This document shows, one piece after another, positions 18,980 to 24,722 of a stretch of 64,000 bases of DNA. The stretch lies in the NCBI GenBank assembly GCA_902633335.1, contig CACPFY010000005.1:1-64000 (forward strand), given 5' to 3'. Source of the stretch: an uncultured Pelagibacteraceae bacterium. Lineage in GTDB: Bacteria > Pseudomonadota > Alphaproteobacteria > Pelagibacterales > Pelagibacteraceae. How positions within the stretch are numbered: position 1 is the stretch's first letter; every line of letters starts with the position of its first letter. A model generated the notes under the pieces. That model saw only the letters and a list, made by a program, of their open reading frames with translations. It did no database searches and had not been told where the DNA came from. The position numbers and the translations under genes were made by a program.

Positions 18980-19773
18980 TGATTGGACTAATATTCGGAG
19001 ATACTGATTTTCCAAAAGAAATACTAAAAAAAATTAAAAGAAAAAAATTAAAATATTTAATTATAGATTTAAGTAAAAAAAGGACATTTAAAAAAGATAA
19101 AAACTCTAAAAAAGTATCTATTGGTCAATTTGGTAAAATTATAAATTTACTTAAAGAAAATAGATGCAAAAAGGTACTCTTTGCAGGAAAAGTAACAAAA
19201 CCCAATTTTTTTAAATTAAGATTAGACTTTAAGGGTGTTTATTACATGCCACGAATTATAAAAAGCTCTAGGATAGGTGATGCAGCTATTTTAAAAGAAA
19301 TAATTGAAATCTTTAAAAGAGAAAAGATTATTACCATAAGCTCTTTGTTTTTTAGTCCAGAGCTAACTTTAAAAAAAGGTATCTATACAAAAATTAAACC
19401 AAACAAAGTTGATAATGCTGATATTAATAAGGCTATTTTAATATTAAATAAATTGAATAAATATAACTTCAGCCAAGGCACAGTAGTCAGAAATAATAAA
19501 CTTATAGCTATTGAAGGAAGAGGAGGTACTCAAAATTTGTTAAAAAGATCAAAAAATAAGAAATTTAAAAATAATGGAGTACTAGTCAAATTTCCCAAAA
19601 AAAAACAAGACTTAAGAGTTGATTTACCAACTATTGGATTGAAAACTTTAAAACAATGTAAGTTAGCAGGCTTAAAAGGTATTGTTGTAAAGAATAAGCA
19701 AAATATTTTTTTAGAGAAAAAAAAATGTATTAATTTTGCAAATAAAAACAAAATGTTTATTTTATCAAAATGA
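18979..19773 (+). CDS. lpxI: UDP-2,3-diacylglucosamine pyrophosphatase LpxI (DUF1009)
   Basis: GTVVRNNKLIAIEGRGGTQNLL and LPTIGLKTLKQCKLAGLKGIVV; position between lpxA and lpxB. Confidence 0.85.
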   Translation: MIGLIFGDTDFPKEILKKIKRKKLKYLIIDLSKKRTFKKDKNSKKVSIGQFGKIINLLKENRCKKVLFAGKVTKPNFFKLRLDFKGVYYMPRIIKSSRIGDAAILKEIIEIFKREKIITISSLFFSPELTLKKGIYTKIKPNKVDNADINKAILILNKLNKYNFSQGTVVRNNKLIAIEGRGGTQNLLKRSKNKKFKNNGVLVKFPKKKQDLRVDLPTIGLKTLKQCKLAGLKGIVVKNKQNIFLEKKKCINFANKNKMFILSK

Positions 19774-20831
19774 AAAAAACGTTCTTATCACTTTTAATAT
19801 ATTTCACCTTTTCCTACTCATATTCATCAGAAATAAAACTTATCAAAATATTCGATGGATTGAACAAACCATGGAGTTTATCTTTCATTGATGAAACTAA
19901 TATTTTAATTACAGAAAAACCTGGAAATCTTTTACTTGTAAATTTAAAAGATAAAACAAAATCGGTCATTAAACATAATTTATCCGTATTTGAAGATGGA
20001 CAAGGTGGTTTGTTAGATGTTTTATTTTATGATGAATATGTTTATGTTTCATATTCTGAAAATAGAGGTAATTGGCATTCTAGCACGTCTGTTGCAAGAG
20101 GAGTATTCAACAATAAAAACATAAGTTTTAAAAATATTTTTAGAGCTGAACCCCCTATTAATTCTGGATACCATTTTGGTTCACGATTAGTTATAAAAAA
20201 AGACAAACTTTTTATTACAGCAGGGGAAAGAGGCGAAGGAATGATTGCCCAGGATCCTCAAAAGCATCCTGGTAGTATTATTAGAATAAATTTAGATGGG
20301 TCTATCCCAAAAGATAATCCAAAGTTTAAAAATAAAAATAATTGGTTACCTGAAATTTACCAGATAGGTGTAAGAAATCCTCAAGGAATGGCTTTATCAC
20401 CTTTTGATGATAAAATTTATTTAAGTAATCATGGCGCAAAGGGAGGTGACTGGTTTGGTACAGCAAACTATGGTGAAAATTATGGTTGGAAAATATTAGG
20501 ATGGGGTGGGACTAATTATAGTGGAACAAAAATTGGTCCAAAATGGAAGCCAGGATTTACCAAGGCTATAAAATACTGGGTACCATCTATAGCAGCAAGT
20601 GCAATTGCAATTTACAAAGGGGAAGAATTTAAGGAATGGAACGGAGATGCACTTGTTACAGCGTTAAAAGATCAGTCATTAAGAAAAATTAGTTTTAAAG
20701 ACTCATTTGTTGTTGAACAAATAATATTTAAGGGAAATATTGGAAGAATAAGAGATATTAAAATTCATAAAAAAACAGGAGAAATTTACTTAATTTCTGA
20801 TAACGGCAGTATTTGGAGAATGTTTAAATGA
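19770..20831 (+). CDS. PQQ-dependent aldose sugar dehydrogenase-like (YliI/GSDH beta-propeller)
   Basis: GLNKPWSLSFID, GGLLDVLF, GSIIRINLDGSIP, GVRNPQGMALSP; signal peptide. Confidence 0.85.
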   Translation: MKKTFLSLLIYFTFSYSYSSEIKLIKIFDGLNKPWSLSFIDETNILITEKPGNLLLVNLKDKTKSVIKHNLSVFEDGQGGLLDVLFYDEYVYVSYSENRGNWHSSTSVARGVFNNKNISFKNIFRAEPPINSGYHFGSRLVIKKDKLFITAGERGEGMIAQDPQKHPGSIIRINLDGSIPKDNPKFKNKNNWLPEIYQIGVRNPQGMALSPFDDKIYLSNHGAKGGDWFGTANYGENYGWKILGWGGTNYSGTKIGPKWKPGFTKAIKYWVPSIAASAIAIYKGEEFKEWNGDALVTALKDQSLRKISFKDSFVVEQIIFKGNIGRIRDIKIHKKTGEIYLISDNGSIWRMFK

Positions 20832-21958
20832 AGAAAATCTTTATTTTAACAGGTGAACCCTCAGGAGATAAATTAGCTGCTAAAGTTATCTCTAAACTAA
20901 AAATTAAAGATCCAAGCATCACCTATCTTTGTTTGGGTGGAGAAGAACTTAAATCTTTAGGAATAAATTCAATCTCAAATCTTAGCGAGGTAACATACTT
21001 AGGTTTTACTCGGGTATTACTTAACTTATTTACAATTAAGAGAAAAATAAATGAAACTTCTCGAAAAATATTAGAGTTTAAACCAGATATTTTGTTTTCA
21101 GTAGACAGTCCAGATTTCACATTACGAGTTGCTGAAAAGGTAAAAAATAATTCACCAAATATAAAAACAATACATTTTGTAGCCCCACAGGTTTGGGTGT
21201 GGAGAGAGGGAAGAGTAAAGAAAATTAAAAAATTTATCGATCATATTTTGCTTTTATTTAAATTTGAAAAAAAATATTGGGAAAAGGAAAATGTAAGTTG
21301 TGAGTTTGTTGGCCATCCACTTTTAGAAAACAACAAGGAAGACAAGATTGAACTTAACCAAGTTATCAAAAAAAATAAAGCAATTATATCTGTTTTTCCA
21401 GGAAGTAGAGATAGCGAAGTTAAAAAACTTACTCCAATATTATTAGACTTTGTTAAACTCATGAATGAAAAGTACGAAGATTTTTTATATGTTTTTCATT
21501 CGACAAAAGCACAAAGATCTAATTTAGAAAATATAATTAATAAAAGCCAAATTAATAATATTGAAATTATTTCTGATGATAAGATTAAAGATCATATACT
21601 AAAAAAATCAATTTTTGCTGTTTCAAAATCTGGCACTATTTCACTTGAAATAAGTAAAAGAAAAATACCTTCAATAATTATTTACAAGATGAATTTTATA
21701 AACTTTTTAATTGTAAAAATGTTAGTAAAAATTAAATATGCGAATATATTAAATATTGCTGCAGGACAGATGATTATTCCTGAATTATTACAATCAAAGT
21801 GTAACCCTAAAGAAATTTATAAATTAGTTTCTAGTTTTTTAGAAGATCAAAATAAAATAAAAAAACAAATTATTAATACTGAAAAAGTTTTAGAAAGCTT
21901 TAGAACCAAAAACCTCCCAACTGATTTAGCTGCGGACTCAATTAGGAAAAGTTTGTAA
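20828..21958 (+). CDS. lpxB: Lipid-A-disaccharide synthase
   Basis: TGEPSGDKLAA, VDSPDFTLRVA, FVAPQVWVWREGR, FPGSRDSEV. Confidence 0.95.
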   Translation: MKKIFILTGEPSGDKLAAKVISKLKIKDPSITYLCLGGEELKSLGINSISNLSEVTYLGFTRVLLNLFTIKRKINETSRKILEFKPDILFSVDSPDFTLRVAEKVKNNSPNIKTIHFVAPQVWVWREGRVKKIKKFIDHILLLFKFEKKYWEKENVSCEFVGHPLLENNKEDKIELNQVIKKNKAIISVFPGSRDSEVKKLTPILLDFVKLMNEKYEDFLYVFHSTKAQRSNLENIINKSQINNIEIISDDKIKDHILKKSIFAVSKSGTISLEISKRKIPSIIIYKMNFINFLIVKMLVKIKYANILNIAAGQMIIPELLQSKCNPKEIYKLVSSFLEDQNKIKKQIINTEKVLESFRTKNLPTDLAADSIRKSL

Positions 21959-22600
21959 TTTTAAATTACAAAGACTACATTCGTTATTTAAACTTGGGAT
22001 ATCACCTTCTAAAAAATCTATTACGTCAGTTATAAATTTTAAATATAAATCATCATTTCTTTTAATTTCAAAATATTGTGTAGACATCTCAAGTGCTGGT
22101 GTATTTTTTAATATTAAATTTTCTGGCTCAAAACAAAAAATTCCCAGGTTTTTTACTGGATCTAATTTTAAATAGTTTTGATCTGGTTTTTCAAACATAA
22201 TTGCATAACTATTTAATTGTGTCATGTATGTTAATGATTTTTTTTCATTTATGTTTGTTACCTTAAAATCTATTATTGAAAAAAAATCTTTATGATCAAT
22301 ATAAGCGTCGATTTTACCTCTTAATTGAAATGCTCTATCTTTATGGTCATAAAGGACTTCAGATTTATGTAGCTTGGCGTAATCTGTTTTAATTATTCCC
22401 TCAGGCACTTTATTAGAATTCAAAAATTTTGAGGATTTATTGTGATAAAATTTTTTTTGAATTGAATCTATTTTTGAAAATATAGACGGGAAACCAAAAT
22501 TTATTCTTACATCGTTTACCTTTAGATCGTAGTAACATCTTTTGCATCCTGAGTATCCAAATGCAAATTCACTTGGACTAAATAAATATGGGTTCGACAT
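21938..22600 (-). CDS. PD-(D/E)XK nuclease superfamily protein with CxxC...CxxC (Cas4/RecB-like)
   Basis: N-terminal SPSEF...CKRCYYD, core GKID / IIDFK / QLNSY (QxxxY), C-terminal ECSLC. Confidence 0.75.
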   Translation of the reverse strand: MSNPYLFSPSEFAFGYSGCKRCYYDLKVNDVRINFGFPSIFSKIDSIQKKFYHNKSSKFLNSNKVPEGIIKTDYAKLHKSEVLYDHKDRAFQLRGKIDAYIDHKDFFSIIDFKVTNINEKKSLTYMTQLNSYAIMFEKPDQNYLKLDPVKNLGIFCFEPENLILKNTPALEMSTQYFEIKRNDDLYLKFITDVIDFLEGDIPSLNNECSLCNLKLQTFPN

Positions 22601-24707: not shown

Positions 24708-24722
24708 GTTCTATAAAAGTTC
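24708..24722 (-). promoter_or_regulatory. Candidate LexA (SOS) box
   Basis: GTTC-N7-GTTC (GTTCTATAAAAGTTC on +), i.e. GAAC-N7-GAAC on the lexA strand, immediately upstream of lexA. Confidence 0.7.

Follow-up and report, generated by a model that had tools for sequence, protein, structure and literature searches.

A stand-alone four-cysteine Cas4-like nuclease encoded behind lexA and gltX in SAR11 bacteria

We analysed a 64,000-nt stretch of DNA from an uncultured Pelagibacteraceae bacterium (the window), in which lexA, gltX and an ORF of 220 aa with an ATG start follow one another on the minus strand and face a convergent lpxB (Table 1). The genes are tightly packed: a gap of 19 bp separates lexA from gltX, the gltX stop and the ATG of the ORF overlap by 1 nt, and the 3' end of the ORF overlaps lpxB by 21 bp. 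These positions agree with a preliminary description of the locus, which had placed gltX about 20 bp after lexA and the start of the ORF at the gltX stop, and the five motifs it had read in the protein (CKRC, GKID, IIDFK, QLNSY and ECSLC) are all found there. The names lpxB, lpxI, umuDC and HDAC-like used here for neighbouring genes come from reading the sequences, without a family search. A 353-aa gene between lpxI and lpxB (window 19770-20831), likewise named from its sequence, resembles sugar dehydrogenases; it is present in many loci and absent in several (L073, L087-L092).

Table 1. Coordinates of genes and sequence elements in the window.
Feature	Position	Strand	Remarks
Four-cysteine PD-(D/E)XK (Cas4/RecB-like) nuclease, window-type subfamily S220	21938..22600	-	PF12705, invariant residues, model, dN/dS
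gltX, 463 aa	22600..23991	-	lexA-gltX order in 40/40 genus genomes
lexA, listed 230 aa	24011..24703	-	likely true start 24685 (MLTKKQ)
lpxB, convergent; far edge of variable slot	20828..21958	+	
N-terminal pair C19-x2-C22 (CKRC codons)	22536..22547	-	nearly invariant in 37 relatives
C-terminal pair C208-x2-C211 (CSLC codons)	21968..21979	-	invariant in 37 relatives
Catalytic D111-F-K113 (D-x-K of nuclease core)	22262..22270	-	D111 and K113 kept in all 37 relatives
LexA-type box GAACTTTTATAGAAC upstream of lexA	24708..24722	-	GAAC-N7-GAAC conserved there

The same lexA-gltX-nuclease/lpxB arrangement recurs in other Pelagibacteraceae genomes with nucleases of 86-99% identity, and in one further locus (L019) with a window-type nuclease of 68% identity. 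Median dN/dS was 0.076 for the nuclease, 0.071 for gltX, 0.098 for lpxI and 0.015 for lexA; by these ratios the nuclease gene is under strong purifying selection, comparable to that on gltX. The high identity in a kept arrangement, together with the low dN/dS, indicates that the ORF is a genuine gene and not a chance reading frame.

The protein matched the PD-(D/E)XK nuclease superfamily (PF12705; 3.5e-6, 27.6 bits against a cut-off of 22). Cas4 models matched it weakly, with the Cas4 equivalog TIGR00372 below threshold (17.9 bits against 65), and PF12684 gave no match to the window protein. Across a profile of 37 relatives, reaching down to ~18% identity, the residues P66, G95, D98, D111, K113, Q128, Y132, C208 and C211 are invariant. 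An AlphaFold2 model built from the same alignment reached a pLDDT of 89.7 and a pTM of 0.85; a first model built on six sequences (pLDDT 44.5) was discarded as useless. The top fold match in the PDB was SSO0001, a Cas4 of the archaeon Sulfolobus (4ic1; E 5.5e-6, TM 0.54-0.58), followed by Finegoldia DinG, ACE1 and RecE and then by MGME1, AddAB and lambda exonuclease, and a sequence-profile search likewise returned SSO0001 (6.8e-5) and then ACE1 (6.6e-4) as the best solved relatives. SSO0001 carries a 4Fe-4S cluster and acts on single-stranded DNA as a 5'-3' exonuclease (PMC3466216). At 220 aa the window protein is a single domain without a joined SF1 helicase. Sequence and model together lend good support to its fold and active site, in line with the stand-alone RecB/Cas4-like nuclease of the preliminary description, which had proposed to check the core D/DxK/QxxxY and the cysteines for conservation and the PD-(D/E)XK fold by structure prediction: core and cysteines are conserved in the 37 relatives, the first cysteine pair nearly so, and the confident model has a Cas4 as its best match.

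The cysteines form two C-x2-C pairs, one near each end, in the window protein and in nearly all of the 37 relatives. In Cas4 and AddB a single cysteine is N-terminal and three are C-terminal (PMC3466216), and the earlier remark that the layout is unlike that of a usual Cas4 is borne out (2+2 versus 1+3). In a weak, local profile alignment to the Cas4 structure 4r5q, C19 and both C-terminal cysteines find counterparts, which makes C22 the apparent substitute for the missing fourth ligand. Zinc is held by four cysteines in the structure of a Cas4-related DUF3799 nuclease (PMC3466216), and the 2+2 layout is compatible with either an Fe-S cluster or zinc. The two pairs probably bind a single metal centre, Fe-S somewhat more likely than zinc, through which the domain is held together.

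Among the nearest known systems are the solo-Cas4 nucleases described by Hudaiberdiev et al. (2017; PMC5704561), which the window protein resembles in several respects: a stand-alone, four-cysteine, Cas4-like PD-(D/E)XK nuclease in an environmental bacterium with a small genome and no CRISPR, with relatives adjoining restriction-modification genes, mostly vertical inheritance and purifying selection. That study centres on COG1468 and COG4343 and leaves aside the PF12705 branch to which the window protein belongs, and it mentions neither linkage to lexA, nor swapping within a slot, nor Pelagibacter. The window nuclease lies outside CRISPR and has the Cas4 fold, but scores far under the Cas4 equivalog cut-off and has its cysteines 2+2 rather than 1+3. 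With SSO0001 it shares the D, D/E-x-K and QxxxY core, although identity is only ~12% and SSO0001-type cysteines are 1+3 (PMC3466216). The iron-staple domains of AddB, Dna2 and Bad also place four cysteines around a RecB-type nuclease core (PMC7430649), and AddAB chains are among the fold matches; those proteins are helicase-nucleases with 1+3 cysteines, whereas the window protein is 2+2 and has no helicase domain. ACE1, an Argonaute-associated Cas4-family protein (PDB 9iab/9iac), owes its tie to Argonaute to its deposited name, and our general survey of neighbours, which was not specific to Argonaute, recognised none beside the genes covered. DUF3799 nucleases (PDB 3L0A) share the RecB-type core and the four cysteines, but their crystal structure holds zinc (PMC3466216) and their family model, PF12684, is the one that fails to match the window protein. 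Overall, the window nuclease is a variant of the Cas4/AddB-type stand-alone nucleases, resembling known solo-Cas4; the 2+2 layout and a swapped nuclease slot behind lexA-gltX appear to be new, as far as the literature searched shows.

Where CRISPR-associated Cas4 has neighbouring cas1/cas2 or an array, we found no close direct repeats of at least 20 nt in the window and no Cas1 in the window genome or 40 relatives (41 genomes), consistent with the preliminary description, which had seen no CRISPR. In the same 41 genomes a search limited to AddA returned no match above the cut-off and no ORF of AddA or RecB size; partial AddA matches in relatives, within ORFs of at most 755 aa, were rejected and read as UvrD-like. 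Sister genera mostly lack both the nuclease and AddA, so the absence of AddAB does not force the presence of the nuclease. Sequence searches of viral contigs, phages and plasmids found no relative, and a phage origin of the gene is therefore unsupported, though viral Cas4-like folds exist.

A lexA-like ORF lies 18-19 bp before gltX in 40 of 40 genus genomes checked. In all 40, and in 18 of 18 loci collected earlier, the pattern GAAC-N7-GAAC (GAACTTTTATAGAAC or near variants) stands upstream of lexA; in the window it lies 23 nt ahead of the likely LexA start. About one match to this pattern is expected by chance in the window, and the box is credible because of its position and its conservation. 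Genome-wide, the pattern occurred 9 times against 12 for a reversed control, which is no enrichment, and the pattern by itself does not suffice for listing a regulon. The linkage to lexA noted in the preliminary description is real and conserved, and the LexA-type box it pointed to is credible. It had also suggested following lexA-gltX-nuclease synteny across SAR11; the lexA-gltX part is constant, but the nuclease in the slot mostly comes from a second subfamily.

The lexA-gltX-nuclease stretch showed no obvious terminator between the genes and no convincing promoter of the nuclease's own, and the 19-bp gap and 1-nt overlap make co-transcription plausible. In our view all three genes probably share one transcript that starts at a LexA-controlled promoter. 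Since the lexA-gltX order is retained whatever occupies the slot, SOS control of the nuclease is argued from tight packing; gltX intervenes, and the nuclease may lie outside the control of the box. In two loci (L021 and L086) a box of this type adjoins umuD. The slot behind gltX in L086 (genome G086) holds umuDC instead of a nuclease, and 5 bp separate umuD from a LexA-type box; going by its sequence, this is another SOS function at the site downstream of gltX.

The genus sample comprised 101 genomes, of which 76 had a gltX match, and the DNA downstream of gltX was inspected in 60. A four-cysteine nuclease followed in 56 of these: the window type directly behind gltX in 9, a different nuclease of ~255 aa (motifs C-x2-C, GGIDD, VDYK, QMDxY and C-x2-C) in 41, islands with distant window-type members in 3 and divergent 255-type members in 3. 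Four slots held no nuclease within the stretch inspected (L050, L086, L091 and L093); lpxB directly follows gltX in L091 and L093, and one of the four genomes (G024) has partial 255-type matches on other contigs. The two types are homologous over their full length (hhalign probability 98.9, E 3e-17), and the 255-type matches PF12684 weakly, below the cut-off (1.2e-4). Searching whole genomes revealed the window type in 13 and the 255-type in 60 of the sampled genomes, with both together in none; among the 76 gltX-bearing genomes the counts were 13 and 58, so that 71 have one or the other. The probability attached to this mutual exclusion (5.6e-11) ignores shared ancestry and is descriptive only, as the window-type slot belongs to one clade.

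In the gltX tree, window-type genomes form a single clade (100/100) beside a large clade mostly with the 255-type. The nuclease tree groups the window type with island genes from L021-L023 (100/99) and places the 255-type among other accessory types. Together, the two trees fit at least two separate recruitments of nucleases into the slot, putatively from defence islands, the direction of transfer being our reading of the trees. When 399 genomes from across the phylum were searched with a profile, only the window genome matched, and most sister-genus genomes lack the nuclease; the phylum-wide result marks it as a patchy gene rather than an ancient proteobacterial one. That related versions have taken the same place in sister species suggests that the pared-down cells of SAR11 require an enzyme of this kind, either to repair DNA or to resist viruses.

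Relatives in both subfamilies lie beside restriction, defence and recombination genes. Their neighbours include an MT-A70 methylase, a ResIII helicase and an HNH-like protein (L026), BglII with MT-A70 (L083), a C5-methylase (L028), HerA (L033), a DUF4011/MTES_1575 protein (L031), a McrB-like protein (L126), GmrSD (L128), RmuC with an ExoI-like protein (L132), an AAA_11/12 helicase (L134), an ATP-dependent DNA ligase (L022 and L030) and umuDC (L021). PDC-S37/Hhe occurs among the neighbours of distant relatives, and Mza-type components occupy the gltX-lpxB gap in L050 and L051.

We give about an even chance to the following reading: a stand-alone exonuclease of the Cas4/AddB type, probably SOS-co-transcribed and drawn from defence islands, acts on the ends of broken and foreign DNA and so serves both repair and defence. 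Sequence analysis establishes the fold, the invariant active-site residues, the selection, the position, the LexA box and the mutual exclusion of the subfamilies; catalysis, polarity, metal, co-transcription and cellular role are our inference. In outline, the proposal runs as follows. DNA damage or phage attack would trigger the SOS response, and the level of the nuclease, a putative PD-(D/E)XK exonuclease without a helicase motor, should rise because it is probably transcribed with lexA-gltX from a LexA-controlled promoter. During infection of SAR11 by one pelagiphage, recA, lexA, umuD and umuC are up-regulated (PMC12753301). In cells that appear to lack CRISPR, AddAB and RecBCD, the enzyme would then, most likely, trim or degrade single strands and DNA ends; end trimming could feed RecA-dependent repair, and foreign or restriction-cut DNA may be destroyed. 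The slot itself would have been filled by recruitment of nucleases from defence islands, at least twice. A bolder version, which we hold only tentatively, is that SAR11 keeps a dedicated, SOS-controlled slot for interchangeable 2+2-cysteine Cas4-like nucleases from defence islands that do the end-processing and foreign-DNA degradation of AddAB/RecBCD.

It is possible, if doubtful, that the protein is instead mainly an anti-phage effector, working with restriction systems or kept as a spare part of them and swapped at a gltX-lpxB defence hotspot for which the lexA-gltX neighbourhood is merely convenient. Restriction-modification islands do occupy the same gap (L026 and L083, with the Mza-type loci L050 and L051), distant relatives lie near HerA, PDC-S37/Hhe, McrB-like and GmrSD proteins, the subfamilies substitute for each other in the slot, and a Cas4-like nuclease limits RSF1010 plasmids in Synechococcus (PMC10653904). 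However, the nuclease is on its own in the window clade and, for the most part, in the sister clade, with no restriction genes alongside, no relatives were found on phages or plasmids, and a stable single-copy gene with a dN/dS of 0.076 contrasts with defence genes, which usually turn over faster.

Near-universal, single-copy presence in the genus, under purifying selection like that on gltX, would suit a pure housekeeping nuclease of repair or recombination, trimming single strands or flaps at forks or breaks in the manner of Dna2, RecJ or MGME1 and unrelated to defence. The fold matches to MGME1, RecE and lambda exonuclease and the relatives adjoining RmuC, ExoI-like, DNA ligase and umuDC genes point the same way, but a conserved enzyme is seldom replaced by 20%-identical relatives from restriction islands and most sister-genus genomes do without it, and we regard this explanation as unlikely. 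A functionless mobile-element remnant in a permissive gap, for which the variable slot, the island relatives and the few genomes with lpxB right after gltX (L091 and L093) might speak, is highly improbable and largely refuted by purifying selection (dN/dS 0.076), with no internal stop codons among the matches listed, catalytic residues invariant at 20-30% identity and a nuclease in 71 of the 76 gltX-bearing genomes of a streamlined genus.

Environmental microbes with small genomes carry more than their share of solo-Cas4 nucleases, whose role there is a general puzzle (PMC5704561). The locus described here ties a Cas4-like nuclease to the SOS regulator in a bacterial group that ranks among the most abundant in the ocean, and a setting in which neither CRISPR nor AddA/RecB was found makes the solo-Cas4 puzzle testable. 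Related nucleases replacing one another in one chromosomal slot also link repair and defence in a streamlined genome.

Several further observations concern the neighbourhoods of the relatives. A cassette at L021:7989-10624, L022:7989-11302, L023:2544-6219 and L030:7977-11400 joins a four-cysteine nuclease to an ATP-dependent DNA ligase (450 aa), with two unknown proteins of ~199 and ~233 aa in L022, L023 and L030; in L021, near the end of the locus, just the ~199-aa protein is present. The partners share 66-82% identity between L022 and L030 but the nucleases only 28%, which points to a probable exchange of the nuclease within the cassette. A protein of 161-167 aa (phrog_38866; L030:7492-7977 and L130:952-1455, 51% identical to each other) lies directly ahead of the window-type nuclease in L030 and of the 255-type in L130, and is distantly CII-like in L033. 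In another genus within the family, a 315-aa protein (L133:2777-3721) encoded near a 255-type relative reached the Cas_Cas4 cut-off (PF01930; 27.4 against 22.7 bits), placing two Cas4-like nucleases in one neighbourhood. Finally, proteins that combine long Pro-Glu repeats with a hydrophobic segment (L049:4370-5029, L052:4530-5228 and L083:2208-2873) occupy the nuclease-lpxB gap in the sister clade, adjoining a histone-deacetylase-like gene.
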